Assembly: GCF_002831625.1 (NCBI RefSeq)
Contig: NZ_CP025116.1
Coordinates: 186,001-250,000, forward strand
DNA length: 64,000 bases
DNA from: Nonlabens sp. MB-3u-79
Lineage (GTDB): Bacteria > Bacteroidota > Bacteroidia > Flavobacteriales > Flavobacteriaceae
Direction of reading: 5' to 3'
Shown one piece after another: positions 13,979-30,656 of this stretch. Both the position numbers and the translations under genes were made by a program. Under the pieces are notes generated by a model. That model had not been told where the DNA came from. It ran no database searches and saw only the letters and a program-made list of their open reading frames with translations. Every line of letters begins with the position of its first letter. The first letter of the stretch is position 1.

Positions 13979-14081
13979 TGAGCTTTGAGCTTTGAGCTTT
14001 GAGCTTTGAGCTTTGAGCTTTGAGCTTTGAGCTTTGAGCTTTGAGCTTTGAGCTTTGAGCTTTGAGCTTTGAGCTTTGAGC
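13979..14081. repeat. Left flank array of four-helix cassette 1 (GAGCTTT units)
   Basis: About 14.5 near-perfect copies of the 7-bp unit GAGCTTT, beginning 14 bases before the paaY start codon. The reverse complement, AAAGCTC, recurs on the other side of the cassette at 14530-14577. Confidence 0.95.
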
Positions 14082-14110
14082 GAAAAATAAAAATATCGTT
14101 CTGAAATTTA

Positions 14111-14484
14111 CTATTTTGTTCTAAGTTTTTTCCGCAATGCTGAAATCATTTTACCTATTTCTGTAAGTGCAGCTCTATTTTTTTCAAACTGTTGTTGTGA
14201 AATATAAGCACGTAAATATGCCTTAGTATTCCAAGTGACACATTCATGACTGCTATCCCATGCCATTTTCAAGTATCGGTTAAAATTAGGATCAGTACTT
14301 CCTGATCCTTCAGAAATATTTGCTGCTATGGAATCTGCGGCGCGGGAAAATTGAGATGACAGCCTATATATTCTTTTTTAGGAAATTGCTCTACTAACTC
14401 ATTTACAACTTCTCCAAAATCCATCGCTTTCTGATAAACTTTCAGATTCTCAAAACTAAAATGATATTCGCTTTCAAATTGCAT
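14111..14484 (-). pseudogene. Four-helix-bundle (23S rRNA IVP family) gene, frameshifted
   Basis: Reads MQFESEYHFSFENLKVYQKA and on to LVEQFPKKEY, then loses frame by one missing base near 14375. It resumes as RLSSQFSRAADSIAANISEG and continues through YLKMAWDSSHECVTWNTKAYLRAYI to IGKMISALRKKLRTK and a stop. Repairing one base gives a complete protein of about 124 residues. It belongs to the same sub-branch as the intact gene at 19712. It lies between paaF and paaY, inside inverted repeat arrays. Confidence 0.9.
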
Positions 14485-14529
14485 TTATACTTTTTAATAA
14501 AATTAATTGCATTTACCAAAAAACAATCC

Positions 14530-14577
14530 ACTCAAAGCTCACGGCTCAAAGCTCATGCCTCATGCCTCATGCCTAAA
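14530..14577. repeat. Right flank of four-helix cassette 1
   Basis: CTCAAAGCTCACGGCTCAAA followed by GCTCA and three ATGCCTC-type units. The AAAGCTC units are the reverse complement of the array at 13979-14081, so the cassette has terminal inverted repeats. It ends two bases before the paaF stop. Confidence 0.85.
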
Positions 14578-14578
14578 T

Positions 14579-15331
14579 CTACTTAAATCTCTTCAAGGTT
14601 TCCTTTGTAAATTCGCTTAAGACTAATCTCCCGGAGATCTTAGCTCTTTCAAAAAGCAATTGGTCCCAATTTTCACAGCCGGTCCAAAACATCTTTTTCA
14701 TTTCGGCCATAGCATCTGGATTATAGGTGCACAAATTTTCAGCAAACGCCTGAATTCCCGCATCCATTTCTTCTGTAGAATCATAAACCTCAGCAAAAAG
14801 CCCGTTGTTCTTAGCCCATTCTGGGGAATAGAATTCGTTTGCATTGATAGCAATCTGGCTCATGCCCGTCAATCCTAATTTGCGTTCTACTGCTGGGCCC
14901 ACCACAAATGGACCTATTCCTATATTGAGTTCACTCAGTTTGATACTGGCAAATTGAGTTGCAAAACAATAATCTGTCGCACTGGCAACTCCTACTCCAC
15001 CTCCAACGGTTTTTCCTTGGACACGACCTAAAATGAACTTAGGACATTTGCGCATCGCATTGATCACATTTGCAAAACCTGAAAAGAATACTTCGCCAGT
15101 TTTTTCATCATTTATGGCTATCAATTCTTTAAAACTTGCTCCAGCACAAAAAGTGCGTTCTCCTCCAGATTTTAATACGATCACTTTTGTAGCCTCATCA
15201 TTCCCTGCATCGGTAATCGCTTGTGCTAGTTCTGCTAGAATAGCACCAGGCAATGAATTGTGTGCCGGGTGAAAGAATTCTATGGTTGTTATTGCGTTTT
15301 CTGTTTGTTTTTTTACGTAGGGATCACTCAT
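14579..15331 (-). CDS. paaF: Enoyl-CoA hydratase/isomerase family, probable PaaF
   Basis: 250 residues of the crotonase fold. It has the oxyanion-hole segments RTFCAGASFKEL (about residue 60) and QGKTVGGGVGVASATDYCF (about residue 107). The catalytic region SELNIGIGPFVVGPAVERKLG lacks the classic second Glu pattern of strong hydratases. Being one of two crotonase genes in the cluster, and distinct from the clear PaaG at 22425, it is best read as the 2,3-dehydroadipyl-CoA hydratase PaaF. It follows paaZ, from which a GIY-YIG cassette separates it. Confidence 0.78.
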   Translation of the reverse strand: MSDPYVKKQTENAITTIEFFHPAHNSLPGAILAELAQAITDAGNDEATKVIVLKSGGERTFCAGASFKELIAINDEKTGEVFFSGFANVINAMRKCPKFILGRVQGKTVGGGVGVASATDYCFATQFASIKLSELNIGIGPFVVGPAVERKLGLTGMSQIAINANEFYSPEWAKNNGLFAEVYDSTEEMDAGIQAFAENLCTYNPDAMAEMKKMFWTGCENWDQLLFERAKISGRLVLSEFTKETLKRFK

Positions 15332-15392
15332 ATTTATAGGCTTTTAAGTTTGTATGAAGCGAACGCACCCTTCAGCGCATTGACGTCCTAGA

Positions 15393-15425
15393 TGTCAAGC
15401 CGCTGCAGAGCGGTTTCGCGTAATA
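15393..15425. repeat. Hairpin repeat left of the GIY-YIG gene
   Basis: TGTCAAGCCGCTGCAGAGCG continuing GTTTCGCGTAATA. The stem is AAGCCGCT/AGCGGTTT, in the same orientation as 11871 and inverted relative to the copy at 15781. Confidence 0.8.
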
Positions 15426-15438
15426 ATTGTCTCAGTGT

Positions 15439-15762
15439 TTATTCAAATCTCTCTTTACTCGTTACATATCCTGTAAAATCCCAATCCGCTGCTAAATCGT
15501 TCCACTCAGGATTCCTGCTTTCAATCAAATTTATTTTATATACTCTTTTCCATTTTTTAATCAACTTTTCTCTATTGATCGCCTCTAGTGGCGTATCATG
15601 ATGCTCATACCACACCAGCTGTTTGATATTGTACTTGCCAACATGCGTTTCAAAAGTGGCTTGCTTATGGTCAAAAGTACGTTGCTTTATATTGTTTGTA
15701 ACGCCTACATAAAATAGTTTGTTCTTCATATGAGCCATGATGTAGGTGTACATTGATTTCAT
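15439..15762 (-). CDS. GIY-YIG domain nuclease family protein
   Basis: 107 residues, single-domain GIY-YIG of the UPF0213/YhbQ-like kind. TYIMAHMKNKLFYVGVTNNIKQR gives the YIM and YVG halves of the signature, followed by the conserved Arg. EYHDTP-like WYEHHDTPLEAINREKLIKKWKR carries the family's Glu/Lys helix. Such small proteins are predicted single-strand or structure-specific nucleases; function in vivo is unknown. It sits between paaF and paaZ and is unrelated to phenylacetate chemistry. Inverted hairpin repeats on both sides suggest it arrived as a small cassette. Confidence 0.88.
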   Translation of the reverse strand: MKSMYTYIMAHMKNKLFYVGVTNNIKQRTFDHKQATFETHVGKYNIKQLVWYEHHDTPLEAINREKLIKKWKRVYKINLIESRNPEWNDLAADWDFTGYVTSKERFE

Positions 15763-15780
15763 AATCTTCTCGTTAGTGAT

Positions 15781-15812
15781 GTAGCGAAGCCGTCCTGCGA
15801 CGGCTTGACATT
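15781..15812. repeat. Hairpin repeat right of the GIY-YIG gene
   Basis: GTAGCGAAGCCGTCCTGCGA continuing CGGCTTGACATT. Stem AAGCCGTC/GACGGCTT. It is the reverse complement of the type at 15393 and overlaps the paaZ stop codon by two bases. Confidence 0.85.
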
Positions 15813-18348
15813 AGTCTACTATACCAAACTGTTCAAAATGATGACTTAAATGCTTTCTCTCCAACAAGGTCCATTCATATTTACTCAAAGCTCCAAAAAC
15901 AGCATTCTTAGTTGTTGCTTTTGGATTTCTTTTGTAAAAATCTAAGTATTTATTTCTTGCTTCCAGCAATTGCGTTTTCGCAGTTTCTAAGTCGGCATGC
16001 TTTAAATCTTCCAGTGCACCATCTTTCATAAATGGCATTTTATGGTTTTGAGGCATTTTATCAAAGTTCCACAAGGTTGCAGCTACTTTTTCTAGATATT
16101 CATCTGGAGTAGCTACTTCAAAGTCTTGGATCTCTCCACTGGCAATACGGTAACTCATTTCTAGATGTTCTACCATGTGCTGTGGGGTCAACGTTCCCCA
16201 ATGAGGTGTTGCATCTTCTTTTAATTTTGACAAGGAAGATTTAATATAGCTCTCTGTAATTTCTGAAAAAACAGTTTGCTTTTTCTCTACCATGGTTAAG
16301 ATAGTGGCAACGGCAACAAGTGCCGTAGCTTCCTCATCCGTCTTGCCGTTTTCATAATCTACTGGCTCTGCGTCAAAAACTTCTACATACCATTTTACGA
16401 TCCCAGATGGATGCTCTCGACCAGCTACATCTCGTTCTCTTTTTTCTTTACAAGTAAGTCGTACATAAATTGTATCATTATGATACAAAGGTCTTAAAAA
16501 GCGAATGTCTTCTAGACCGTAGTTGGCACTTACGGGTCCTTTATTAGGATACACAAAAAGTCCTGCTGCAGCACTAATAATAAAGTAACCGTGAGCTGTG
16601 CGCTTCTTAAAAATACTTCCTTCTAAACTGGTAATATCGGTATGGGCATAAAAATGATCCCAAGTAAGATTGGCAAAACTCTGAATGTCGCTATCTGTGA
16701 GAGTTCTTTTATGAGTCTCCAGACTCATGCCTGGTTGGATATCTTCATAATGGTAAGAAAACGGATGGTTCTCCGTCTTTTTGTAAGCTCCATTAGGCTG
16801 GTAAATCCCAGTGATTTCAGTTAACGAAGTTGGACTTCCTTGCACCGCACAACGTTGCATATAATGTTTGATACCGCGCAAACCGCCCATTTCCTCACCA
16901 CCACCAGCTCTTCCCGGACCTCCGTGTACCAGTAATGGTAATGGCGATCCATGACCTGTGGATTGTGGCGCGCTGTCTCTATTTAAAGTTAATATTCTCC
17001 CATGAGATGATGCGGCGTTGATGGTGTACGCTTTCGCGAAAGCGTCATCATTAGTAACCACACTGCTCACCAAAGAACCTTTACCCATATGAGCCAGTTC
17101 TATCGCTTCATCTATATTTTTATAAGGCATCAACGTGCTCACAGGACCAAAGCATTCAATCTCGTGAACCGATGTGTTTTTAAAGGGCTGGTCTTCTCGC
17201 ATTAAAATAGGGGACATAAACGCCCCTTTTTGAGCGCGGTCTCCCAAAACCTCTACCTCATCCATGCTTCCATAGACTAATTTTGCGGTTTTTGCTATTT
17301 TACTAATTTGATCTTTTACCGCAGTTTTTTGATTCTCATTGATCAAGGCACCCATACGAGTTTCTCTTAACAACGGATCTCCTATTACCGTTTTAGAAAG
17401 TTGTTTTCCAAGAGCAATTTGCACATCTTCCATCAGGTTTTCTGGAACCAAGATTCTCCTTATCGCTGTACATTTCTGACCGGCTTTAGAAGTCATTTCT
17501 TTGCGGACTTCCTTGATAAATATGTCAAACTCTGGAGTCCCTGGAACCGCATCTAGCCCTAGTACTGAGGAGTTCAATGAATCTGCTTCCATAGTAAATG
17601 GAACAGACTCCTCCAGCAAACGAGGATGTGATTTTAATTTTCTTCCTGTTAGTGCACTACCTGTAAATGTGACCACATCTTGAGAGTTGACCGTATCTAA
17701 TATGTTTGTTGTTAAACCGCTTAATAACTGTAAAGATCCTTCTGGTAATATTCCAGAATTGATAATTTCACGTACTACGGCCTCTGTTAAAAAAGCTGTT
17801 TGTGGTGCTGGCAATACAACTGCTGGCATTCCAGCCATCCAGTTGACCGCACATTTTTCTAACATTCCCCAAACTGGGAAGTTAAAGGCATTGATATGTA
17901 CCGCAACTCCTTTGCGAGGCACCAAAATATGATGCGCCATAAAACGTCCTCCTTTAGATAGGTCTATAGGGTCGCCTTCTACGGCATATGACTGATCTGG
18001 AAATAACTTTCTCAAGCTCGCATTGGCAAACAAGTTACCAAATCCTCCTTCTATATCTACCCAACTATCTGCTCGAGTGGCTCCTGTTCGGTAACTTATT
18101 TCATAAAAAGCAGCTTTTCTCTTATTTAAATAAAGTGCCAGCTTTTTAATCATGTTCCCACGTTGCTGGAAGGTCATGTCTCGCAAGACTTTTCCGTGAT
18201 CACGCCCGTATTCTAACGCAGACTTTATATCCAGTCCTTCGGTGCTGGTAAGTCCTATTACTTCACCAGTAATTGCGTCGTACATGTTGCTTGCAGACTT
18301 CTCTTCACCAGCTTGCCACTGGCCATTGATGTAACTTTCTAAGATCAT
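15811..18348 (-). CDS. paaZ: PaaZ with an added C-terminal DinB-like domain
   Basis: 845 residues against about 681 for E. coli PaaZ. Residues 1-520 are an aldehyde dehydrogenase domain (AFNFPVWGMLEKCAVNWMAG; catalytic Cys in SKAGQKCTAIRR, about 296). Residues about 535-685 are a MaoC-like hotdog domain (SFANLTWDHFYAHTD; GYFIISAAAGLFV). Residues about 695-845 are an extra domain ending in LSKYEWTLLERKHLSHHFEQF, the HxxxH pattern of the DUF1569/DinB superfamily. PaaZ opens the oxepin-CoA ring and oxidises the aldehyde. The third domain is an unusual fusion. It starts the Z-F-Y unit behind the operator at 18434. Confidence 0.92.
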   Translation of the reverse strand: MILESYINGQWQAGEEKSASNMYDAITGEVIGLTSTEGLDIKSALEYGRDHGKVLRDMTFQQRGNMIKKLALYLNKRKAAFYEISYRTGATRADSWVDIEGGFGNLFANASLRKLFPDQSYAVEGDPIDLSKGGRFMAHHILVPRKGVAVHINAFNFPVWGMLEKCAVNWMAGMPAVVLPAPQTAFLTEAVVREIINSGILPEGSLQLLSGLTTNILDTVNSQDVVTFTGSALTGRKLKSHPRLLEESVPFTMEADSLNSSVLGLDAVPGTPEFDIFIKEVRKEMTSKAGQKCTAIRRILVPENLMEDVQIALGKQLSKTVIGDPLLRETRMGALINENQKTAVKDQISKIAKTAKLVYGSMDEVEVLGDRAQKGAFMSPILMREDQPFKNTSVHEIECFGPVSTLMPYKNIDEAIELAHMGKGSLVSSVVTNDDAFAKAYTINAASSHGRILTLNRDSAPQSTGHGSPLPLLVHGGPGRAGGGEEMGGLRGIKHYMQRCAVQGSPTSLTEITGIYQPNGAYKKTENHPFSYHYEDIQPGMSLETHKRTLTDSDIQSFANLTWDHFYAHTDITSLEGSIFKKRTAHGYFIISAAAGLFVYPNKGPVSANYGLEDIRFLRPLYHNDTIYVRLTCKEKRERDVAGREHPSGIVKWYVEVFDAEPVDYENGKTDEEATALVAVATILTMVEKKQTVFSEITESYIKSSLSKLKEDATPHWGTLTPQHMVEHLEMSYRIASGEIQDFEVATPDEYLEKVAATLWNFDKMPQNHKMPFMKDGALEDLKHADLETAKTQLLEARNKYLDFYKRNPKATTKNAVFGALSKYEWTLLERKHLSHHFEQFGIVD
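17029..17044. repeat. Iterated 16-bp palindrome in paaZ
   Basis: Perfect CGCTTTCGCGAAAGCG, read as DDAFAKAYTIN in the aldehyde dehydrogenase domain. Confidence 0.9.
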
Positions 18349-18376
18349 AATTTTTTTATAAAAATTGTCTTTTTAT

Positions 18377-18392
18377 CGCTTTCGCGGAAGCG
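18377..18392. repeat. Iterated palindrome variant upstream of paaZ
   Basis: CGCTTTCGCGGAAGCG, one mismatch from the perfect palindrome, in the paaZ leader region. Confidence 0.8.
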
Positions 18393-18433
18393 GAATCCAA
18401 ACCTTTCCACGAAAATACAAAACAACTGGCAAA

Positions 18434-18451
18434 AACTAACAAGTGTTAGTT
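18434..18451. promoter_or_regulatory. Candidate TetR-type operator upstream of paaZ
   Basis: AACTAACAAGTGTTAGTT, a perfect dyad of the ACTAAC-N4-GTTAGT type, 86 bases before the paaZ start and 9 bases after the paaJ stop. With the copies at 13298 and 31758 it marks three transcription units. Confidence 0.78.
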
Positions 18452-18459
18452 AGTTCCAT

Positions 18460-19668
18460 CTAACTCACATTTTCAATTACCATCGCATAACCCTGTCCAA
18501 CTCCCACACACATGGTGATCAATGCGTATTTTTTACCAGTCAGTTGAAGCTCTAATGCTGCGCTGTAAGCAAGACGTGTTCCTGTAACACCTAATGGATG
18601 ACCTATAGCAATAGAACCCCCATTAGGATTGATGCGTTGATCATCATCAGCCAGTCCCCATGCTCTGGTGCAAGCAAGTGCTTGCGATGCAAAAGCCTCG
18701 TTCAATTCAATCACATCCATATCATCCATAGAAAGGCCTGCCTTCTCTAGTGCTTTATTACTAGCTGCAACAGGTCCTATTCCCATGATCCTAGGTTCTA
18801 CACCTACTACGGCACTACTCACCACTCTTGCGATAGGTTTTAAGTTGTATTTCTTAACGGCATCTTCACTGGCAATAATAGTCGCCGCCGCACCGTCGTT
18901 TAACCCACTTGAGTTTCCTGCAGTAACAGAGCCACCTTCTTTTTTAAAAGCTGGACGCAGTTTTGCAAGAACTTCTTTGGTCGTACCTGGACGTATAAAT
19001 TCGTCATCCTTAAAGATAATCGGATCTTTTTTGCGTTGTGGGATTTCTACTGCTACAATTTCTTTAGCAAATCTTCCTGATTTTTGTGCAGCAGCTGCTT
19101 TTTGTTGTGACCAAGCAGCAAAGGCATCCTGATCTTCTCTAGAAATAGTATGTTTTTCTACTAGATTTTCAGCGGTATTCCCCATACCGTCTACACCGTA
19201 CATTTCGGCCATTTTGTGATTGACAAATCGCCAGCCAAAACTAGAATCATACATCTTAGAGTCGGTACCAAAAGCGCTACTAGGCTTTGCTATGACCAGT
19301 GGCCCTCGAGTCATGTTCTCTACTCCACCAGAAATAAACACCTCTCCATCTCCTGTTTGTATGGCTCTGTGCGCATGAACTATAGCACTCAATCCAGAGC
19401 TACACAATCTATTCACTGTTTCTCCAGGAACCGAAACTGGTAATCCTGCCAGCAATCCAGCCATACGCGCTACGTTGCGGTTGTCTTCTCCAGCCTGATT
19501 GGCACAACCCATGATCACGTCTGCATAGGCGTCTTTTGGTATGTTGGGATTTCTTTCTACGACAGTTTTTATAACGTGTGCTGCAAGGTCATCTGGCCGT
19601 ATGGTCGATAAAGTTCCTTTGTAGCTTCCTATTGGAGTTCTTACTCCGTCGATGATGTATGTGTTCAT
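18460..19668 (-). CDS. paaJ: 3-oxoadipyl-CoA/3-oxo-5,6-dehydrosuberyl-CoA thiolase
   Basis: 402-residue thiolase. The acylated cysteine is in TVNRLCSSGLSAI (about residue 88), the GHPLGVTGTR histidine near residue 355, and the second catalytic cysteine in LITMCVGVGQGYAM near the end. Length and the NPNGGSIAIGHP segment match degradative thiolases. In this cluster it would cleave the two C8/C6 oxoacyl-CoA intermediates to acetyl-CoA and succinyl-CoA. It is the last gene of the G-H-I-J run, with a four-helix cassette just upstream. Confidence 0.93.
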   Translation of the reverse strand: MNTYIIDGVRTPIGSYKGTLSTIRPDDLAAHVIKTVVERNPNIPKDAYADVIMGCANQAGEDNRNVARMAGLLAGLPVSVPGETVNRLCSSGLSAIVHAHRAIQTGDGEVFISGGVENMTRGPLVIAKPSSAFGTDSKMYDSSFGWRFVNHKMAEMYGVDGMGNTAENLVEKHTISREDQDAFAAWSQQKAAAAQKSGRFAKEIVAVEIPQRKKDPIIFKDDEFIRPGTTKEVLAKLRPAFKKEGGSVTAGNSSGLNDGAAATIIASEDAVKKYNLKPIARVVSSAVVGVEPRIMGIGPVAASNKALEKAGLSMDDMDVIELNEAFASQALACTRAWGLADDDQRINPNGGSIAIGHPLGVTGTRLAYSAALELQLTGKKYALITMCVGVGQGYAMVIENVS

Positions 19669-19670
19669 TT

Positions 19671-19714
19671 ATTAGTGGATTAGTGGATTAGTGGATTAGT
19701 GGATTAGTGGATTA
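19671..19714. repeat. Left flank of four-helix cassette 2 (ATTAGTGG units)
   Basis: Five and a half copies of the 8-bp unit ATTAGTGG, starting 2 bases after the paaJ start codon and ending at the stop of the four-helix gene. A degenerate inverted counterpart (CTAATCATCACATCAACCAA) may lie at 20115-20134. Confidence 0.85.
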
Positions 19715-20086
19715 AGGTGTTTTATTTCTTATATATTTTCTAAAAGAAGATAACATTTTTGTTAATTCACTTATTAACATACGATTTTCTTCATCTTCCT
19801 GATCAGATATGTATAATCGCAGTCTAGCTTTTGTACTACAAACTACACATTCATTTGCGCTATAAATTGCGATGTTCAAGTGTTTAATAAATTGAGCATC
19901 ACTTCCTGGATAACCTTCTGCTATATTAAGTGCTATGGAATCAGCAGCGCGTCTATATTGACTTGACAATGCATATAATTCTTCTTTAGGGAATTGCTTT
20001 ATTTGAACTTGAACATGTTCACCAAAATCGATAGACTTAGTATAAACATCTAGTTTTTCAAAAGCAAAATGATATTTACTACTCAT
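19712..20086 (-). CDS. Four-helix-bundle protein, 23S rRNA intervening-sequence-protein family
   Basis: About 124 residues from the ATG at 20086; an upstream TTG would add six residues and is less likely. Typical family pattern: [46 protein letters not shown] (about 35-60), a middle ANECVVC helix and a C-terminal ISELTKMLSSFRKYI. The family was first found as ORFs in 23S rRNA intervening sequences; members form pentameric basic four-helix bundles of unknown role. Here it sits between paaI and paaJ, not in rRNA. It is the intact member of the sub-branch also represented by the broken copies at 14111, 20618 and 30262. Confidence 0.9.
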   Translation of the reverse strand: MSSKYHFAFEKLDVYTKSIDFGEHVQVQIKQFPKEELYALSSQYRRAADSIALNIAEGYPGSDAQFIKHLNIAIYSANECVVCSTKARLRLYISDQEDEENRMLISELTKMLSSFRKYIRNKTP

Positions 20087-20141
20087 TTTACGAAAATAAG
20101 ACAACTATTCTTCTAATCATCACATCAACCAATCTTCTAGA

Positions 20142-20558
20142 TTATTCCCAATCCTTATTCGTCCTAAAAACAACTCCCTTAAAAAGCGCCACCAGCTCGT
20201 CGCCTTTTTTTACCTCAACGATGTTGAAACCTACTTTGGTTTTGGTTTTATCAAGGGTGCATTCGGCGGTGATGTAATCGCCTTCTTCTAGTGCTTCGAT
20301 ATGGTTGATACTGGTCTCAATTGAAACGGCAAATTTACCATGTGTGTTGGACGAAAAACCAAAAGCCGTATCTGCCAACGCGTAAGTAATGCCGCCATGT
20401 GCTTTCCCCATGCTATTGAGCATTTCTGGTCGTATGCTCATTCCCAGTTTTACACATCCTATTTCTACCGATAAAATCTCCATCCCTAACCAAGTAGAAT
20501 AAGGATCTAACGAAAGCATTTTTGCAGGTATCTTTTTTCCGTCTAGTTTTTGAGTCAT
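20142..20558 (-). CDS. paaI: PaaI hotdog thioesterase
   Basis: 138 residues of the 4HBT hotdog fold. The motif GKAHGGITYALADTAFGFSSNTHG (about residues 52-75) contains the family's HGG and the Asp of the active site. PaaI hydrolyses ring-hydroxylated phenylacetyl-CoA and relieves CoA trapping in the pathway. Length matches the E. coli protein (about 140). The upstream gap to paaH holds repeats and the remnant of a four-helix gene. Confidence 0.9.
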   Translation of the reverse strand: MTQKLDGKKIPAKMLSLDPYSTWLGMEILSVEIGCVKLGMSIRPEMLNSMGKAHGGITYALADTAFGFSSNTHGKFAVSIETSINHIEALEEGDYITAECTLDKTKTKVGFNIVEVKKGDELVALFKGVVFRTNKDWE

Positions 20559-20560
20559 GG

Positions 20561-20619
20561 TTTTGGTGAGTTGATGAGTTGGTGATTTGGTGATTTGGTG
20601 ATTTGGTGATTTGGTGATT
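20561..20619. repeat. TTTGGTGA tandem array, left flank of deleted cassette 3
   Basis: Five exact TTTGGTGA-type 8-bp units preceded by degenerate ones (GGTGAGTTGATGAGTTGG), immediately next to the paaI start codon. Confidence 0.85.
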
Positions 20620-20726
20620 AAAAGTGTTCTTTATTTTTAGGACTTTGTATCGAGGCTGAGATCATTTTTCCAATTTCTGTCAACAATTAAATCTTCCAAC
20701 TTAAAATGATACTCACTTTTAAACAT
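20618..20726 (-). pseudogene. Four-helix-bundle gene remnant with large internal deletion
   Basis: Begins MFKSEYHFKLEDL, matching the N-terminus of the copy at 14484. It then jumps directly to LLTEIGKMISASIQSPKNKEHF, matching the C-terminal helix. About 85 codons are missing and the two parts are in different frames. It lies between paaH and paaI. Units ACTCAAAG/ACTCAGAG at 20751-20780 mark the right side and reach into the end of paaH. Confidence 0.85.
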
Positions 20727-20754
20727 ATTTAATTTAATTTTTCCTTTTAGGGAC

Positions 20755-21978
20755 TCAAAGACTCAGAGACTCAAAGACCAATCCGCTTTGCTTCATTTTC
20801 CTTAATAAAGGTGAGCATCTATAGCGATCTTCTCTATATACATCATACAAAGCGTCCAGTCCATTCACGCACCAGTCGATTCCTTTTTCGTTTGCCCAAG
20901 CCAGCAATCCTTTAGGGTAATTTACGCCTTTGGTCATGGCACTGTCTATTCCATGAGCAGTGGCAATATTTAAGAATAAGGCGTCTGCAGCCTCATTGAT
21001 GAGCATTACCAATACGCGATCTTGGATTTCTTTAAGCAGTTCAGGTGATTTTTCTGGTTCCGCTTTCGCGAAAGCCTGCTCGCTATCTGCATTCACATAA
21101 TCATAAAATCCGCGTCCTGATTTGCGACCTAGCCAGCCTGCCTCGACCAATCTCTTTTGAGTCAAGGACGGCTTGTAACGGGGATCAAAATAGAAAGCTG
21201 TGAAGACCGTCTCTGTCACCACATAATTTACATCATGACCTATATAATCCATGAGTTCAAAAGGTCCCATCTTAAAACCTAATGACTTTAATGCGTAATC
21301 TATAGTGGCAAAACTGGCCATTCCTTCCTCATAAATACGCAGGGATTCACTATAAAAAGGTCGCGCCACTCGATTTACGATAAAACCTGGCGTATCCTTA
21401 GCCACAGCCACTACTTTCTTCCAGTTTTCAACGGTAGCAACACAAGTATCTATGACATTTTGAGCGGTTTGCACTGCTGGAATTACCTCCACCAACTTCA
21501 TTAAAGGAGCTGGATTAAAAAAGTGAATTCCTATACAACGTTCTGGTTTAACCAAAGATGCGGCAATGCTCGCAATACTTAAACTAGAGGTATTAGAAGC
21601 AATAATGCAATCTTGAGAAACATGTGATTCTAACTCCTGAAATACTTTTTTCTTGATATCGAGATTCTCTACAATCGCCTCGATGGTTAAATCAGCATCT
21701 GATAAATCCTTGATCGCACTCACATAAGAAATATTAGACTGTATGCGGTTTTTCTCGTCAAGGTCAATTCTTCCTTTCTCAATAAGCCGATTCATTATTT
21801 TTTCAAGAGCCGCTTCTGCTTTATCCAATTGTTCTTGATTGACATCAAATAGTTTTACTTGACAACCTGCTGTGGCAGCTACTTGAGCGATACCACTTCC
21901 CATGGTTCCAGCGCCTATGACTCCTACTTTGGAGATATATGAATCTTGATTTTTGATTTTTGATTTTTGATTTTCCAT
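20755..21978 (-). CDS. paaH: 3-hydroxyadipyl-CoA dehydrogenase
   Basis: 407 residues. The Rossmann motif VGVIGAGTMGSGIAQVAATAG starts at residue 18. The catalytic His lies in CIGIHFFNPAPLMKLVEVIP, and GPFELMDYIGHDVNYVV and a second C-terminal domain follow. It oxidises 3-hydroxyadipyl-CoA. The first 14 residues (MENQKSKIKNQDSY) are extra: they are encoded by the TGATTTT array of the neighbouring cassette, so the start codon lies in the repeat. A perfect iterated palindrome at 21061 encodes QAFAKAEPEK between domains. The C-terminal SLSL is likewise encoded by the 20751-20780 repeat. Confidence 0.93.
   Translation of the reverse strand: MENQKSKIKNQDSYISKVGVIGAGTMGSGIAQVAATAGCQVKLFDVNQEQLDKAEAALEKIMNRLIEKGRIDLDEKNRIQSNISYVSAIKDLSDADLTIEAIVENLDIKKKVFQELESHVSQDCIIASNTSSLSIASIAASLVKPERCIGIHFFNPAPLMKLVEVIPAVQTAQNVIDTCVATVENWKKVVAVAKDTPGFIVNRVARPFYSESLRIYEEGMASFATIDYALKSLGFKMGPFELMDYIGHDVNYVVTETVFTAFYFDPRYKPSLTQKRLVEAGWLGRKSGRGFYDYVNADSEQAFAKAEPEKSPELLKEIQDRVLVMLINEAADALFLNIATAHGIDSAMTKGVNYPKGLLAWANEKGIDWCVNGLDALYDVYREDRYRCSPLLRKMKQSGLVFESLSL
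21061..21076. repeat. Iterated palindrome in paaH
   Basis: CGCTTTCGCGAAAGCC (perfect 14-bp core) in the inter-domain region of paaH, read as AFAKA. Confidence 0.9.
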
Positions 21979-22376: not shown

Positions 22377-22413
22377 TTTTTAAATCAAAAATCGCAAATC
22401 AAATATCCAATAT
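22377..22413. repeat. Right flank of four-helix cassette 4
   Basis: AAATCAAAAATCGCAAATCA continuing AATATCC, the imperfect reverse complement of the TGATTTT array at 21941-21976. Confidence 0.85.
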
Positions 22414-23207: not shown

Positions 23208-23243
23208 GGATCTTTTTAATTTTTATAAAGATAATGGTTGTTA

Positions 23244-25471: not shown

Positions 25472-25504
25472 TGTTTTAATCTCTATAGTTATCATAGAAG
25501 TTTT

Positions 25505-25518
25505 GCTTTCGCAAAAGC
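25505..25518. repeat. Iterated palindrome variant, intergenic
   Basis: GCTTTCGCAAAAGC, one mismatch, between the convergent secreted-protein genes. Confidence 0.75.
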
Positions 25519-25612
25519 ATAACAAGCATTACCAAAAGATCCATATTAGATTTTTTAGAGGCTCTTTAAACCTAAGATCCAAATAGCTCCTATCTATTGG
25601 TAAATTTAAAAA

Positions 25613-26347
25613 CTACAGCTTAGTAATTTTTAGATAAGATAAATCAGGATTTACATCTATAAAACCATTTATATCTTCCCCAGAAGAATCAGTTGCAATA
25701 AAGTCAACCGTAGAAGTTTCGGTAGTTGTAAATACGGCAATTTGTTTTTGTTGAACTATTTCAATTTGAGTCTTTACAGAAGCCATAGTCCCTATTAATC
25801 CATTTTGAACAGTGTTTATTCTTAATATATAATCAAAACTACCTGACGCTATATAAACTGATGATTCTACAATATAGTCGCCTGGCGGCAATGTTAAATC
25901 GTTACCGGATAAAGAAGCTCCTTCAATAGTATTATACCTATTGGTTGAGGCGTAATTAAAAACAATGGGACCATTTAAAATATCCGTCTGCACCTGCGTC
26001 TTAGTACTTACAAAAGTTGCGAAAAGGGTGCCAAACTTAGTTGATTGATCTTGCTGATCAATTATTTTAATCCATTTAGAAAGAGGGGTGCTCCAATAAT
26101 AATAACCAACACTAACATCATTAACAGCAACTAGATTGAAAACAAGTAAACTATTAGCAGGGTCTACTATGCTTGTTACATCAGTTGTACTTTGCAGTTC
26201 CAATCTGGGTATTAAAATTCCTTTATCAAAAGAACTAATATCTAACATACTGGAAGTATCAGGAACAGCGGTATTTATACCTACCTGTGCATTTAATGCT
26301 ATTGATAATAACAACAAAAAAGTCGTAATAAGTAATCGTTCTTTCAT
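25613..26347 (-). CDS. Secreted protein, flavobacterial QVGINT-type
   Basis: 244 residues with a signal peptide ending at LNAQ (about residue 21), then VGINTAVPDTSSMLDISSFDKGILIPRLEL. This N-terminal module recurs in many flavobacterial surface proteins and resembles tail-fibre-like proteins. A YYYWSTPLSKWIKI turn follows. The C-terminal 130 residues look like an all-beta, C1q/TNF-like jelly roll (LPPGDYIVESSVYI). No sorting domain is visible. With its convergent neighbour it forms an insert between paaD and paaG. Confidence 0.75.
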   Translation of the reverse strand: MKERLLITTFLLLLSIALNAQVGINTAVPDTSSMLDISSFDKGILIPRLELQSTTDVTSIVDPANSLLVFNLVAVNDVSVGYYYWSTPLSKWIKIIDQQDQSTKFGTLFATFVSTKTQVQTDILNGPIVFNYASTNRYNTIEGASLSGNDLTLPPGDYIVESSVYIASGSFDYILRINTVQNGLIGTMASVKTQIEIVQQKQIAVFTTTETSTVDFIATDSSGEDINGFIDVNPDLSYLKITKL

Positions 26348-26610
26348 CTTTATGTTCTTAGGGGAAAGCCAAATTTATTCTGCAAACAAAACTAGGTTCT
26401 TAAAATAATGTTAATGATGTTCTGTTTTCGCTAAAAGAACAATTACAACGATTAAAGATCATACTTAGCTCTTAGAGCATTCGATTAAAAACACGTATTA
26501 AAAAAATATCCTACGCCATTAATGGAAAAAGAAGTTGGTTGGTTGGTTGGTTAAAGACTAACAATTGAACTGATAATTATGTTAGATATTAGGCTTTCGC
26601 GAAAGCCTAA
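26348..26610. other. Gap between secreted gene and paaD with TTGG tandem and palindrome
   Basis: No gene. It holds four and a half TTGG units at 26535-26552, possibly the trace of another cassette flank. A perfect iterated palindrome with extended arms (AGGCTTTCGCGAAAGCCT, 26591-26608) lies 3 bases past the paaD stop, where it could also act as a transcript-end hairpin. Confidence 0.6.
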
Positions 26611-27165
26611 TTACTTCAAGCATTTAAAATAATCAAAAGGCTCTAAGCAATCCTCACATTGAAACATGGCTTTACATGCTGTAGAACCAAACTGGCTTAC
26701 GAGCTTGGTATTCTTAGAGCCGCAATTGGTGCACTTCACCATCTTTTTTTCATTGAGCAGGACATCCTTGTCTGCAGACTCTTCTAGTGGTGCAGCGATG
26801 CCATAATCTTCCAGTGCCTTGCGACCGCGATCTGTGATCCAGTCCGTCGTCCATGGCGGGCTCATGATCAACTGTATATGTGTTGTGTATCCAAGAGCCG
26901 TAAATGCGCTCTCTAAATCGTCGCCTATTACGTCCATTGCTGGACAACCGCTATAAGTAGGGGTGAGCTTTATGGTGATTTCTTTTCCGTCTACTACCAC
27001 ATCTCTAATCACTCCAAGATCTACCACGTTTAAAACAGGTATTTCTGGATCCATGACGGATTCTAGAATGGATACTATAGATGGAGGTAAGTCTGAATAA
27101 ATGGATTTCGCTATTTTAGACGAACTTGAATTCGAACTCGAACTTGAACTTGAATCTTTAGTCAT
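26611..27165 (-). CDS. paaD: PaaD, phenylacetyl-CoA epoxidase maturation protein
   Basis: 184 residues. A MIP18/DUF59 domain (ILESVMDPEIPVLNVVDLG, about 30-48; TPTYSGCPAMDVIGDDLE with the conserved Cys) precedes a C-terminal zinc-ribbon-like segment (KCTNCGSKNTK and CKAMFQCEDCLEPF, four or more Cys). PaaD assists Fe/S or diiron maturation of the PaaABC(E) system. The first 20 residues (MTKDSSSSSSSNSSSSK) are Ser-rich and encoded by the GAACTTGAA array of the cassette upstream. The start codon overlaps the four-helix gene by 8 bases. Confidence 0.93.
   Translation of the reverse strand: MTKDSSSSSSSNSSSSKIAKSIYSDLPPSIVSILESVMDPEIPVLNVVDLGVIRDVVVDGKEITIKLTPTYSGCPAMDVIGDDLESAFTALGYTTHIQLIMSPPWTTDWITDRGRKALEDYGIAAPLEESADKDVLLNEKKMVKCTNCGSKNTKLVSQFGSTACKAMFQCEDCLEPFDYFKCLK
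27119..27156. repeat. Left flank of four-helix cassette 5 (GAACTTGAA units)
   Basis: GAACTTGAATTCGAACTCGA continuing with more six-base units. It lies inside the first codons of paaD and is complementary to the TTCGAG array at 27527-27560. Confidence 0.9.
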
Positions 27166-27505
27166 TTGTCTTTTTAATTAAGGTTACTACTATTCTAATA
27201 AGCTCATCATTTTCAGATTGTAAAGGTTCACACCTATCGGTCGCTAAAAGATTTGCCTTATTTTGAATCCTTAAGTTTCTCAAGCTTTCTCGAAGTTCTT
27301 TTAGGGTAATTCGCAGTTTATTTATTCGGTCTTTTGTTGTTCCAGCTCCCAGTGCTTCTCCGTAATTTAAAGCTGAAGAACATGCTGAACGAATCAATTG
27401 TTGAGCAAGATATTGCGCGGCATAAGAGTTAGGCATTTTGATATAAAGCTTGATGATATCAGCAGCAAAATCTTCTAAACGCTCTGCAAGATCTTTATAA
27501 ACCAT
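27158..27505 (-). CDS. Four-helix-bundle protein, IVP family, second sub-branch
   Basis: 115 residues, intact. LAERLEDFAADIIKLYIKM, AQYLAQQLIRSACSSALNYGEALGAG (about 29-54), DRINKLRITLKELRESLRNLRI and a C-terminal ELIRIVVTLIKK helix. It is close to the copy at 22015. It lies between paaC and paaD; its last codons overlap the paaD start by 8 bases, so the two are translationally linked. Both ends are bounded by inverted hexamer arrays. Confidence 0.9.
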   Translation of the reverse strand: MVYKDLAERLEDFAADIIKLYIKMPNSYAAQYLAQQLIRSACSSALNYGEALGAGTTKDRINKLRITLKELRESLRNLRIQNKANLLATDRCEPLQSENDELIRIVVTLIKKTND

Positions 27506-27526
27506 ATTATCTTTTTATTCTTTTAT

Positions 27527-27560
27527 TTCGAGTTCGAGTTCAGGTTCGAGTTCGAGTTTA
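27527..27560. repeat. Right flank of four-helix cassette 5
   Basis: TTCGAGTTCGAGTTCAGGTT continuing CGAGTTCGAGTTTA, the reverse complement in kind of the array at 27119-27156. It ends 5 bases before the paaC stop. Confidence 0.9.
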
Positions 27561-27565
27561 TTCAC

Positions 27566-28369
27566 TTACCATTTCGAATCTGGATACGTCCTTTGCATAT
27601 ACTGCATCTCGGTAAGTATAAATCCAAGGTGCTCGCTGTGTAATCCTTCTTTACCTCCTTTTTGGAAGTACTCTACTTCTGGGATATCTAGTGTTGCTAG
27701 AGTGAGTAAGTCTTTTATCTTTTCATAGTAGGTATCCCGAAATGCTGACATATCTGGCGCTACTCCCGCAGCAATCATGGCATCATCTGCAGTGGTGGTT
27801 TGAAAGAGTTCATCGGTATAAACCCAAAGGTCATTTACAGCTTCTTGAACTCGTTTCTTGCTTTGTTCTGTTCCGTCTCCTAAACGTTTTAACCAGTCTC
27901 CTGAAAAACGCTCGTGATAACTCGCTTCTTTAATTCCTTTAAAAGCAAAGGCTCGCAAGGTTTCGTCGGCACTTTGTTGCAAAGCGTTTAGAAATAATTT
28001 ATTGTACACATCAAAGAAAAACTGACGTACAATCACATAACCGAAATCTGTGTTGGGTTGTTCTAATAACAATACGTTTTTATATTCTCTTTCTTTCCTT
28101 AGAAATGCGATATCGTCCTCTGTTGATTTATCTCCTCTTAACTGGGCGATGTATTGATAAAAATTACGCACTTGTCCCAACATATCTAGGGAAATGTTAG
28201 TCAATGCAATATCTGGCTCTAGGTTAGGACCATGACCACAAAGCTCTCCTAATCGCTGACCTATAATCAGATAGTTATCTGCAACTCCTAGCAGGTAGTT
28301 GATTAAGTGTTCCTTGTTTTGTGTTGATTCCAAAAATTTTGGATTCAACTCTTTTATCGGTTGTTTCAT
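27566..28369 (-). CDS. paaC: PaaC, structural subunit of phenylacetyl-CoA epoxidase
   Basis: 267 residues of the ferritin-like fold, near the usual 250-270. LLGVADNYLIIGQRLGELCGHGPNLEPDIALTNISLDMLGQVRNFYQY covers the first two helices, and EASYHERFSGDWLKRLGDGTEQ lies in the second half. PaaC pairs with PaaA to form the catalytic core but lacks a functional diiron site in characterised systems. It lies between two four-helix cassettes. Confidence 0.94.
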   Translation of the reverse strand: MKQPIKELNPKFLESTQNKEHLINYLLGVADNYLIIGQRLGELCGHGPNLEPDIALTNISLDMLGQVRNFYQYIAQLRGDKSTEDDIAFLRKEREYKNVLLLEQPNTDFGYVIVRQFFFDVYNKLFLNALQQSADETLRAFAFKGIKEASYHERFSGDWLKRLGDGTEQSKKRVQEAVNDLWVYTDELFQTTTADDAMIAAGVAPDMSAFRDTYYEKIKDLLTLATLDIPEVEYFQKGGKEGLHSEHLGFILTEMQYMQRTYPDSKW

Positions 28370-28380
28370 ATCAATGAAAT

Positions 28381-28424
28381 GATTAAAAAATCAAAACGAA
28401 AATCAAAATCAAAATCAATTTTGA
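28381..28424. repeat. Left flank of four-helix cassette 6 (AAAATC units)
   Basis: AAAATCAAAATCAAAATCAA and neighbours, complementary over about 20 bases to 28781-28811. Confidence 0.9.
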
Positions 28425-28430
28425 GCACGC

Positions 28431-28777
28431 TTATTTTTGGTTCTTAATAATTGTTGCAACTATTTTACTGAGCTGTAAAGATTCATCTACTAGATTTGTT
28501 TGGTCGTTTTTTAAAAGATTGGCTTTAAGTTGTATCCTTAAGTTATTCTTACATTCTTTTAATTCCTTTAAACAAATCCTAAGCTTATTAATCTTGTCTT
28601 TACTACTTCCTGCACCAGCAAACTCTCCGTAATTTAAAGCAGCACTTCCGGAGGAACGGATAAGTTGTTCCGCATAATATTTTGATGCATATGTTTTATC
28701 GGAAAATCAAATTCTCTAACCACATCTGCTGCAAATAGTATCAATCTATCTTCTACATCATAAGGTTTTTCAATCAT
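28431..28777 (-). pseudogene. Four-helix-bundle gene, single-base frameshift
   Basis: Reads MIEKPYDVEDRLILFAADVV then shifts frame near 28700. In the next frame it continues FSDKTYASKYYAEQLIRSSG, SAALNYGEFAGAGSSKDKIN and LRICLKELKECKNNLRIQLK to IVATIIKNQK and a stop. One base restores a protein of about 115 residues of the second sub-branch (like 22015 and 27158). It lies between paaB and paaC. Confidence 0.9.
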
Positions 28778-28780
28778 TAT

Positions 28781-28811
28781 GGTTTGATTTTAGTTTTGAT
28801 TTTGATTTTCC
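28781..28811. repeat. Right flank of four-helix cassette 6
   Basis: TTGATTTTAGTTTTGATTTT continuing GATTTTCC, the reverse complement of the AAAATC array at 28399-28420. Confidence 0.9.
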
Positions 28812-28819
28812 TTTTAAAA

Positions 28820-29104
28820 CTACATATGTTTTAGTTCATCAGGCAGCTCATAAAAAGTAGGATGTCTATATACTTTATCTGTTGCTGGTTCAAAAAGCTC
28901 ACCACTAGATTCTGGGCTACTAGCGGTGATATTAGTGGACTCTACTACCCAAATGCTGACCCCTTCATTTCTACGGGTGTATACATCTCGGGCATTGTTC
29001 ATGGCCATCTCTGCATCTTCAGCATGTAGACTGCCGCAATGTCTGTGTTCTAGTCCGTTTTTAGATCGTATAAAAACTTCCCAAAGTGGCGTTTCTTGAC
29101 TCAT
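28820..29104 (-). CDS. paaB: PaaB, phenylacetyl-CoA epoxidase subunit
   Basis: 94 residues, the usual length. WEVFIRSKNGLEHRHCGSLHAEDAEMAMNNARDVYTRRNEGVSIWVV is diagnostic. PaaB bridges PaaAC heterodimers in the multicomponent epoxidase. The gap to paaA is 160 bases. Confidence 0.95.
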   Translation of the reverse strand: MSQETPLWEVFIRSKNGLEHRHCGSLHAEDAEMAMNNARDVYTRRNEGVSIWVVESTNITASSPESSGELFEPATDKVYRHPTFYELPDELKHM

Positions 29105-29264
29105 ATTCTTTTAAATTTAAGTTTAAACTTAAGTTTAAGTTTAAAGGTTTACTCATGCACTAGCCCCATTGTCCTTCAGACATTTCCCAAAAGGGAAAAA
29201 TTAAATTGCCCTTAATAGGTAACAATGAAAGGTCCCTTCCGCTGGAAGGGATTTAAGGTAATCT
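29105..29264. other. paaA-paaB gap with AAGTTTAAACTT-type array
   Basis: TTTAAGTTTAAACTTAAGTT and more units at 29109-29146 look like a cassette flank without a gene. A short inverted repeat TCCCTTCC/GGAAGGGA (29232-29251) follows. No four-helix sequence remains. Confidence 0.5.
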
Positions 29265-30227
29265 TTAAACCGCTTTAGCGATTTCTTCTTTCCTATCTTT
29301 CTGTTTGGACGCATAAGCACTTGCTGCTTCACGTACCCAAGATCCATTCTCCCAAGCATCACGACGGTCGTCCAGTCGCTTTTTATTCATAGGTCCGTGG
29401 CCTTTTACCACTTGCCAGAATTCATCCCAATTGATCTCTCCAAAATCATAATTTCCTTTCTCGTCATTCCATTTTAAATCTGCATCTGGAATGGTCAATC
29501 CTAAGAGTTCTGCTTGTGGAACTGTCTGGTCTATAAACTGCTGGCGCAACTCATCATTAGTCTTGCGCTTTAACTTCCACTTCATAGATTGCTCGGTATG
29601 TGTGCTTGCCGCATCTGTAGGACCTAACATCATTAATGATGGCCACCACCAGCGGTTCAGTGCATCTTGAGCCATTTCTTTTTGTTCTTCAGTACCGTTA
29701 CACAGCGATAACATGATTTCATATCCTTGTCTCTGGTGAAAACTTTCTTCCTTACACACACGTACCATCGCACGAGCATAAGGTCCAAAAGAAGTGCTAC
29801 ACAAGGGCACTTGATTGATAATCGCAGCACCATCTACTAGCCAGCCTATGGCTCCCATGTCTGCCCAGCTCATCGTTGGGTAATTGAAAATCGAAGAGTA
29901 TTTTGCCTTTCCAGAATGTAAATCTTCATACAATTGCTCCCGAGTAATGCCTAAAGTTTCGCAAGCACTGTACAAGTAAAGACCGTGCCCAGCTTCATCT
30001 TGCACCTTTGCCAGTAAGGCTACTTTGCGTCGCAGTGATGGCGCACGAGTGATCCAGTTTGCTTCTGGCAACATCCCTACAATTTCAGAATGTGCATGTT
30101 GAGAGATCTGTCTGATATGTGTCTTGCGATACTTTTCAGGCATCCAGTCTTTAGGCTCGATCTTTTCATCTCTTGCAATTTTAGCGTCAAATTGCGTTTC
30201 TAAACTTTTGATTTCTGCTTCACTCAT
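29265..30227 (-). CDS. paaA: PaaA, catalytic subunit of phenylacetyl-CoA epoxidase
   Basis: 320 residues of the ferritin-like diiron fold. [42 protein letters not shown] and [16 protein letters not shown] contain the Glu/ExxH ligand helices. [28 protein letters not shown] is a diagnostic C-terminal segment. It epoxidises the phenylacetyl-CoA ring with O2, with electrons from PaaE. It is the second gene of the E-A-B-C-D unit. Confidence 0.96.
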
Positions 30228-30231
30228 GGTT

Positions 30232-30270
30232 TATTTGCTTTTGGCTTTTAGCAATTTGCTATTAGCTTAT
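30232..30270. repeat. Left flank of four-helix cassette 7 (TTGGCTTTTAGC type)
   Basis: TTTGCTTTTGGCTTTTAGCA continuing ATTTGCTATTAGCTTA. Its inverted counterpart is at 30630-30653. Confidence 0.82.
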
Positions 30271-30603
30271 ATCCAACTTCTTTTTAAAACTAGTAATCAT
30301 CTTACCGATTTCTATTAATTTGATTCTATACTACTGTTCTTTTTGTTTAGTAATGTAAGCTTGCGATGCCGCAATAGATAAACACACTACACATTCTCTG
30401 ACACTACCTTGTGCAATATTTAGAAACTTATTCAATTATTTATCGCTATCGCCATGTCCTTCTGCAATGTTCAGAGCTATTGAAACTGCCGCTCTTCTTA
30501 ACTGCGAAGTAAGTCCATAAATTTCTGTTTTAGGAAATACAGTGGTTAACTCGTAAACGAACTTTGATAAACTCTTAAATTTTCAAATCTAAATTCTATT
30601 ATC
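30262..30603 (-). pseudogene. Four-helix-bundle gene, decayed
   Basis: No start codon (ATA where ATG is expected before [11 protein letters not shown]), one frameshift early on, then [20 protein letters not shown] and [22 protein letters not shown] followed by an in-frame TAA. LNKFLNIAQGSVRECVVC, a second in-frame stop, and IEIGKMITSFKKKLDIS complete it. It is of the same sub-branch as 19712 and lies between paaE and paaA. It is the most degraded near-full-length copy. Confidence 0.88.
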
Positions 30604-30615
30604 TTGTGTTATTAG

Positions 30616-30656
30616 GCTTTCGCGAAAGCGAAAAGCTAATTGCCAAAAGCCAATTT
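30616..30656. repeat. Iterated palindrome fused to the right flank of cassette 7
   Basis: GCTTTCGCGAAAGC followed directly by GAAAAGCTAATTGCCAAAAG and CCAATTTA. The second part is the reverse complement of 30234-30264 and includes the paaE stop codon. Confidence 0.82.

Follow-up and report, generated by a model that had tools for sequence, protein, structure and literature searches.

Inverted arrays of 6-, 7- or 8-nt repeats flank IVP genes in a phenylacetate cluster of Nonlabens and in many other bacterial groups

The phenylacetate (paa) gene cluster of Nonlabens sp. MB-3u-79 harbors a series of small cassettes, each centered on a gene or relic of the intervening-sequence protein (IVP) family (PF05635/TIGR02436) and mostly bounded by repeat arrays that mirror one another. 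The analyzed window is a stretch of 64,000 nucleotides (contig NZ_CP025116.1, positions 186,001 to 250,000), and positions below are those of the window. The paa genes occupy the minus strand, with paaE (31767) first and paaY (13369) last, and their individual names follow in part an earlier note made from the sequence alone. Seven junctions, designated by their two flanking genes, contain an IVP gene or relic, as that note had proposed: C/D, G/H and I/J carry intact genes, B/C and F/Y frameshifted ones, E/A a decayed one and H/I one with an internal deletion (Table 1).

TIGR02436 fits all three intact genes in a profile search. A six-frame search of the whole 3.18-Mb genome detected ten PF05635 matches at E ≤ 0.01, six of which fall inside these 17 kb, and six of the seven paa copies, including the E/A, B/C and F/Y relics, exceed the curated Pfam cut-off. 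The seventh, the H/I relic, was recognized by DNA alignment alone: 207 of 241 aligned bases are the same as in the H/I cassette of a related genome (G010), with a score of 127 as compared to at most 26 for shuffled sequences (n = 200), and the internal deletion previously noted is real. In the three intact cassette gaps, the IVP gene is the only open reading frame (ORF) of at least 50 aa and PF05635 is its only Pfam match over the cut-off, with no transposase. The elements sit between paa genes, and the window has no rRNA match at Rfam gathering thresholds, the sole match being 6S-Flavo at 51580-51690. The bare repeat array reported earlier between paaB and paaA is a gene-less palindromic 6-nt array, and similar palindromes can be read by eye in the A/B gaps of three related genomes (G001, G003 and G010). 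The D-G gap holds two other ORFs, and the Z/F gap holds a GIY-YIG ORF between inverted palindromes, so that the former statement that only the gap with the paaZ operator lacks a cassette needs correction.

The arrays flanking the IVP genes are mostly reverse complements of one another, with units of 6, 7 or 8 nt and a sequence that differs at each junction. Their earlier description as bounding repeats is correct as far as it goes and misses that the flanks are inverted partners. Terminal inverted repeats scoring at least 30 are found in five of the seven window cassettes (F/Y 44, B/C 39, G/H 37, C/D 37 and E/A 30). The I/J arms are weak (15), and the H/I score is only 12, the searched gap having excluded the upstream array, which overlaps paaH; both H/I arrays are visible with Tandem Repeats Finder (TRF). 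At a score of 40, TRF detected arrays of 6-8-nt units at most arm positions of the 64-kb window, in the A/B palindrome, and at 34163-34282 and 49424-49485.

Table 1. Cassettes, arms and related arrays in the window (arms are named upstream or downstream with respect to the minus-strand genes).
Feature	Position	Strand	Basis
E/A upstream arm, 7-nt class	30634..30653	-	18/20 pairing with 30241-30260
E/A decayed IVP gene (one TAG, one TAA inside)	30292..30582	-	PF05635 95.4 bits
E/A downstream arm	30241..30260	-	partner of 30634-30653
A/B gap, palindromic 6-nt array without gene	29110..29145	.	inverted-arm comparison, TRF
B/C upstream arm, 6-nt class	28794..28815	-	complementary 21/22 to 28393-28414
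B/C frameshifted IVP gene	28431..28783	-	PF05635 36.9 bits over 28470-28676
B/C downstream arm	28393..28414	-	partner of 28794-28815
C/D upstream arm, 6-nt class	27533..27558	-	complementary 23/26 to 27129-27154
C/D intact IVP gene, 115 aa, end overlapping paaD start	27158..27505	-	PF05635 E 3.5e-13, TIGR02436
C/D downstream arm, within paaD 5' end (Ser-rich N-terminus)	27129..27154	-	partner of 27533-27558
G/H upstream arm, 7-nt class	22382..22407	-	complementary 23/26 to 21948-21973
G/H intact IVP gene, 117 aa	22015..22368	-	PF05635 E 4.4e-13
G/H downstream arm, within paaH 5' end (N-terminus MENQKSKIKNQ)	21948..21973	-	partner of 22382-22407
H/I upstream 8-nt array, overlapping paaH 3' end	20752..20778	-	TRF period 8; alignment to G010
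H/I IVP relic with internal deletion	20650..20726	-	alignment to G010
H/I downstream 8-nt array	20562..20619	-	TRF period 8, 7.2 copies
I/J upstream arm, degenerate	20105..20134	-	21/30, weak
I/J intact IVP gene, 130 aa	19712..20104	-	PF05635 E 7.5e-25
I/J downstream 8-nt array	19671..19714	-	5.5 perfect copies
F/Y upstream arm, 7-nt class	14531..14574	-	14531-14562 complementary 28/32 to 13972-14003; TRF
F/Y frameshifted IVP gene, two frames	14111..14484	-	PF05635 69.5 bits over 14141-14410
F/Y downstream 7-nt array	13979..14081	-	TRF, 14.7 perfect copies
Z/F gap, GIY-YIG ORF (15439-15762), non-IVP cassette kind	15393..15810	-	inverted palindromes 15784-15810 and 15393-15419, 22/27
17-copy 7-nt array (ATGAGGG), possible upstream-arm remnant, no gene	34163..34366	-	TRF; remnant by eye

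To compare arms, we reverse-complemented the right flank of each locus and aligned it locally with the left flank, using the flanks of other loci as a control. Of 99 loci, comprising 65 paa-junction IVPs of the genus and 34 others of the order, 81 had an own arm pair scoring above the 95th percentile of mismatched pairs, as compared to 7 in a direct-orientation control. A score of at least 24 was reached by 84 of these IVPs and by 44 of 1400 random positions in the paa regions of the genus, where the four top scores fall at GIY-YIG cassettes. The 95th percentile was also exceeded by 22 of the 34 order loci without paa, by 44 of 69 phylum loci and by 54 of 76 named loci from all phyla (direct control 13; the best 80 loci were taken and four dropped for short flanks). 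Since two loci, L142 and L190, look as if they came from one genome, we repeated the tests on a non-redundant pool of the order, phylum and named samples, in which proteins are at most 80% identical (156 of 179 kept). These 156 loci outside the paa cluster belong mostly to Bacteroidota, yet represent many phyla; 111 of them exceed the 95th percentile (approximately 8 expected) and 77 the 99th, whereas the direct-orientation control yields 26 and 16, respectively. The arm-gene-arm layout is therefore general around IVP genes of many bacterial groups. An ordinary gene family accompanied by chance repeats is rejected by the same flank controls.

The arms match each other far better in register (identity 0.84-0.87) than with an offset of 7 or 14 nt, which gives 0.50-0.59 in the paa set and 0.57-0.65 elsewhere. 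Irregular variants of the unit are thus mirrored on the other side, which speaks for pairing or copying between arms and disfavors a model in which each side has its own, independent array of a common binding motif. In five of six paa junctions, H/I being the exception, own arm pairs score higher on average than cross pairs; inside a single IVP lineage this advantage is often missing, and for that reason we do not claim strict coevolution of the arms.

For 96 non-redundant loci with an arm score of at least 26, the period is 7 in 66, 8 in 17, and 9, 10 or 11 in 6, with none in 7, whereas shuffling the left arms of these loci left 72 without a period and only 4 with period 7. Autocorrelation at lag 7 amounts to 0.54-0.60 in three broad samples, compared with 0.20-0.36 at other lags. 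In the paa set, an early binary classing into 6 or 7 nt hid an 8-nt class and was replaced by a three-class scheme: the 6-nt class comprises B/C and lineage 1 of C/D (23 of 23 measured), the 8-nt class H/I (4 of 4) and one I/J lineage (1 measured), and the 7-nt class 25 other cassettes, two having no period. Mapped on the IVP tree, unit length changes 3 times across 53 paa cassettes (21.0 when shuffled), and the 7- and 8-nt classes change 9 times across 83 broad loci (15.5 when shuffled, with 0 of 500 as low). Unit length follows the lineage of the IVP protein. Prediction of the arm sequence itself from protein identity proved weak.

Both neighbors lie on the IVP strand at 112 of 126 loci (52 of 63 named, 26 of 29 phylum and 34 of 34 order loci), in keeping with the intercistronic placement described before. 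Neighbor strands were taken from simple ORF calls of at least 100 aa, covering 63 of the 76 named and 29 of the 69 phylum loci (L098-L126 only). As a background, 111 of 142 neighboring ORF pairs beside named loci and 21 of 51 window triplets are on one strand; the co-directional excess is clear, and part of it is ordinary operon structure. Unbroken IVP genes display medians of 0.05-0.20 for the ratio of nonsynonymous to synonymous substitution rates (dN/dS; six junctions, 1-7 usable pairs each), paaI having 0.041 (92 pairs), and by this measure purifying selection acts on the intact genes. Of 296 sampled Bacteroidota genomes, 213 contain PF05635 matches. To see whether paa genes attract IVPs elsewhere, we took 20 other genomes known to have IVPs; PaaA was detected in 8 of them, and among the IVP matches listed for these 20 the only one lying within 2 kb of paaA belongs to G071.

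Outside the paa set, AG occurs once per 7-mer in 0.52-0.55 of the units of the upstream arm, compared with 0.28-0.30 after shuffling. Such phasing would suit an RNA- or DNA-binding regulator, in which a ring-shaped IVP oligomer sits on phased 7-nt repeats and controls itself and the downstream paa gene. TRAP, which binds NAG repeats with one site per subunit, offers a comparison, and the two solved IVP relatives that we found, PDB 2gsc (XCC0516, an IVP protein) and 2rld, each have 5 chains per entry; purifying selection would fit as well. The AG core is, however, absent from the paa arms (0.24 versus 0.24 shuffled), and a regulator needs neither mirror-copied arms nor carriage of arms between junctions. 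We consider this explanation distinctly unlikely.

A second alternative places the elements at the level of the messenger, the arms forming a stem in the operon mRNA that RNase III cuts, so that the IVP portion is excised or insulated, in the manner of 23S rRNA intervening sequences (IVSs). Maintained RNA helices should favor G-U over A-C mismatches. The earlier note had regarded the cassettes as mRNA-level counterparts of rRNA IVSs, and the arms are indeed able to pair: in the 47 paa cassettes folded (of 65, those clearing a score threshold of 28), the mean pairing probability in sense RNA is 0.76, as compared to 0.14 with the right arm shuffled, and it exceeds 0.5 in 45. The orientation of the IVP genes, in sense between co-directional genes, agrees with this model, as do the RNase III-cut inverted-repeat stems of rRNA IVSs containing this ORF and the tandem heptamers of the Coxiella one (PMC4990558). 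Yet the antisense strand pairs equally well (0.80), and the F/Y arms of the window, one of the two exceptions, pair poorly in sense RNA (0.08). Among 119 non-redundant arms there is no G-U excess (161 G-U-type versus 184 A-C-type mismatches, p 0.24), and in the paa arms the bias is opposite to that expected from selection on RNA (67 versus 101, p 0.011). Outside the paa set, a higher threshold gives 135 versus 173 (p 0.035), an A-C excess that vanishes when counted per locus (41 versus 47, p 0.59). Arms of recent origin would show no G-U excess either. In the window, moreover, the 3' arms of C/D and G/H encode the starts of PaaD and PaaH, so that excision from the RNA would remove start codons. 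Owing to these coding arms and to the lack of a G-U excess, we see an mRNA intervening sequence as possible and do not favor it, rating it unlikely overall; what persists of the earlier proposal is the capacity of the arms to pair.

A stem preserved by selection on the sense transcript receives no support from the mismatch types. The A-C excess of the paa arms corresponds to G-T pairs on the antisense strand and comes from related, non-independent sequences. The translated arms make up N-terminal extensions, a Ser-rich stretch MTKDSSSSSSSNSSSS in PaaD (27100-27165) and MENQKSKIKNQ in PaaH (21934-21978), and the H/I array overlaps the C-terminus encoded by paaH.

The arms might also be a neutral by-product without function, slippage having generated arrays near short genes and quasi-palindrome correction, an established mutational route, having made the two sides complementary. 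Strand-symmetric mismatches and perfect one-sided expansions agree with such an origin, which leaves unexplained why arms accompany this family across phyla and why unit length tracks the protein tree. The small GIY-YIG loci of the genus also speak against it. Of 30 such loci, 26 were used (two with long frames and two on short contigs were dropped); 10 of these score above the 95th percentile reached by cross pairs (32.1), most having palindromes resembling repetitive extragenic palindromic (REP) sequences, and those scoring at least 28 exhibit no 7-nt period (0.20) despite their paired flanks. We judge a purely neutral origin very unlikely. The GIY-YIG ORFs of the genus often lie between inverted REP-like palindromes, for example GTCAAGCCG..., TTTCCGCG...CGCGGAAA (window 15332-15810; L247-L276), and possibly represent a second family of palindrome-bounded cassettes. 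Another palindrome, GCTTTCGCGAAAGC, occurs with its variants in nine copies at 13334-30634, in gaps and within genes of the paa cluster.

The history of the cassettes was followed in the paa regions of 21 of 23 genomes of the genus (leaving out G012, with no PaaA match, and G021, which is fragmented), counting junctions found within a single fetched stretch. IVPs occupy B/C in 18 of 21 genomes, C/D in 11 of 21, G/H in 10 of 19, F/Y in 9 of 18, I/J in 10 of 17, H/I in 6 of 19 (window relic included) and E/A in 2 of 21, and all 65 paa-junction matches are oriented with the operon. On the paa-protein tree, occupancy changes 30 times in total (B/C 3, C/D 5, G/H 5, F/Y 6, I/J 5, H/I 4 and E/A 2). 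Empty alleles, whose existence the earlier note had anticipated, are present; G015 and G017, for instance, have paa genes and no PF05635 match at E ≤ 0.001. Variation among the gaps and the tandem structure of the arms make the ends of the element indistinct. The IVP tree (78 rows, 106 columns, quick method, 25 of 74 forks weak) clusters by junction, with 8 changes where the minimum possible is 7 and shuffling gives 51.9, so that the lineages appear old and, whether by inheritance or by exchange, seem mostly to have kept to their own junction. The two protein branches recognized before are real, lying in blocks (B/C, C/D and G/H versus E/A, H/I, I/J and F/Y) instead of alternating. The data uphold the view that this is not one local duplication, and they replace the picture of an invasion by one in which most lineages look old, some cassettes have been lost or replaced locally, and a single clear move has occurred.

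That move concerns the F/Y cassette of G010, which is placed within the I/J clade as sister of the I/J cassette of G008 (SH-aLRT 97). An alignment of the two spans 493 nt with 73% identity and has both of its ends within the arms; they share a long (ACCACAT)n right arm with one base different. The whole-cassette score is 227 for this pair and at most 90 for the G010 cassette with the other eight F/Y cassettes, and an older F/Y-type right arm appears by eye to persist outside the new cassette. This is the one case of inverted repeats carried with the element, gene and arms being common to cassettes at different junctions. Turnover is seen elsewhere: C/D contains three IVP lineages, with apparent arm remnants of another lineage, read by eye, beside the present cassette in G010, G013, G018 and G002 and at the empty sites of G001 and G007, and the F/Y cassettes of G009 and G018 are sisters with common (ACTAACC)n arms. 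Movement with arms is thus documented by one clear case and further indicated by turnover. Clustering by junction and the low dN/dS of intact copies are also what one would expect of ordinary paa operon genes, inherited vertically with occasional loss and with chance microsatellites alongside. The empty, replaced and moved alleles, the inverted arms far above controls and the G010 F/Y cassette make this highly improbable.

In six genomes (G003, G007, G011, G013, G015 and G018) the paaH/paaI gap, about 540 nt without IVP, apparently holds another small gene, presumably DUF1697-like, with starts resembling MRYVALLRGINVGGKNKLP; in G016 an apparent small gene adjoins an IVP at this junction.

Our preferred reading, which we hold with about even confidence, is that these are slowly moving, operon-resident DNA-level cassettes whose protein recognizes or shapes its arms. 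The unit would consist of an inverted array arm, the IVP gene and a complementary array arm, in sense orientation between co-directional genes, a placement from which the host operon should express the IVP. The element would be one of DNA, with the arms as its ends. The IVP, a member of a four-helix-bundle family, may bind the phased arms and join the ends as a hairpin or cruciform, cutting and joining would be left to replication or recombination enzymes of the host, and copying between paired arms could keep them complementary.

Several observations weigh against this reading. Joint inheritance of gene and arms could by itself suffice for a lineage-bound unit length, recognition by the protein being the bolder interpretation. 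Arm binding by the IVP is our inference, and arm similarity appears to follow protein identity weakly: across different paa junctions the two hardly correlate (rho 0.27), and in the broad pool rho is 0.18 (0 of 300 permutations as high), with the rise mostly at protein identity above 0.7. The AG core is missing from the paa arms, 45 of the 156 non-redundant loci do not exceed the 95th percentile, and H/I own pairs have no advantage over cross pairs within the junction (28.8 versus 29.4). The moving step lacks an explanation, the cassettes containing no transposase, and target-site duplications had no systematic search. There is only one clear move between junctions, on a tree arranged mostly by junction with few columns and many weak forks. 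The arms of the moved G010 cassette score 40 with the F/Y cassette of G011 and 42 with the I/J cassette of G008, the former value being high because the measured right arm runs, as judged by eye, into the old F/Y remnant. Lastly, four of the seven copies in the window are broken; the dN/dS medians come from unbroken copies, with few pairs per junction.

Two further heptamer arrays lie outside the paa cluster. The locus of the ATGAGGG array (34163-34366) is located between two co-oriented genes, with a possible upstream-arm remnant at approximately 34346-34366, some 65-80 nt away; the inverted-repeat listing of the window contains no inverted pair joining the two, and the locus is perhaps a gene-less IVP cassette relic. 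Nine perfect TAGGCAG heptamers (49424-49485) directly follow a stop codon and precede a terminator-like hairpin, with no inverted partner listed and no IVP match. A tandem array at 40150-41584 has 15 copies of a 96-nt unit and higher-order periods of 287 and 383.

The closest known system is the 23S rRNA IVS with an S23/IVP ORF, for example that of Coxiella burnetii, where an IVP-type ORF lies, as here, between terminal inverted repeats in a unit of about 430 nt (PMC4990558). The Coxiella IVS forms a 28-bp stem, is excised by RNase III and carries, depending on the strain, two or three heptamers in tandem before its ORF, and the X. campestris S23p is a homopentamer (PMC4990558). The elements described here differ by their position between protein genes, by an array particular to each junction and by the lack of a G-U bias between arms, and their stems are predicted from the sequence whereas RNase III excision is known for the rRNA IVS. 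The Coxiella ORF is described as undergoing reductive evolution (PMC4990558), in contrast with the purifying selection on intact copies here, notwithstanding the broken ones. Insertions in rRNA of the candidate phyla radiation (CPR) include both IVP and GIY-YIG ORFs (PMC11270868), as do the paa gaps, although the latter separate protein genes. PF05635 is said to resemble in sequence and structure Avd, the accessory protein of diversity-generating retroelements, which works with a reverse transcriptase and TR/VR repeats (template and variable repeats; PMC10053308).

Heptamer arrays have been described independently. X. campestris (Xcc) has 186 G-rich heptamer arrays, and the Xanthomonas heptamers (GGGAATC) are mostly intergenic and include 70 (Xcc) and 75 (Xac) nearby convergent, that is inverted, array pairs reminiscent of the arms here (PMC4692102); TAACTGA forms 169 sets, also of 7-nt units and mostly intergenic, in one Beggiatoaceae genome (PMC4679880). 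The available portions of these two papers contain no word beginning with 'intervening', and they seem to draw no link to IVPs; the link proposed here comes from other genomes. In the open-license literature available to us, including parts of PMC4853749 and PMC5524665, we found no connection of PF05635 genes to inverted 6-8-nt arrays, and three of the papers describe IVP proteins as uncharacterized or of unknown function.

In summary, the observation made in the earlier note is confirmed and its interpretation is supported in part. The architecture around this common protein family is real, widespread and, as far as the searched literature shows, undescribed, while both mechanism and protein function are our proposals. 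In our reading, IVP cassettes are related to rRNA intervening sequences and may have given rise to heptamer repeats of bacterial genomes. More tentatively, and with considerable doubt, PF05635 genes across bacteria might form the core of a single class of minimal operon-dwelling DNA elements. A ring protein would read the inverted arrays and might even build them, its lineage setting the unit length of 6, 7 or 8 nt; heptameric repeats would then be the arms or remnants of these elements, and rRNA intervening sequences one special landing site. Our data suggest a little-noticed, widespread kind of genetic element. Mirrored 6-8-nt arrays tied to protein lineage provide a concrete, testable nucleic-acid substrate for the PF05635 family. 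They also suggest where heptamer repeats might come from, which had been noted as abundant in bacteria and had drawn little study (PMC4692102). If true, rRNA intervening sequences, operon cassettes and short-unit repeats would be joined in one explanation.

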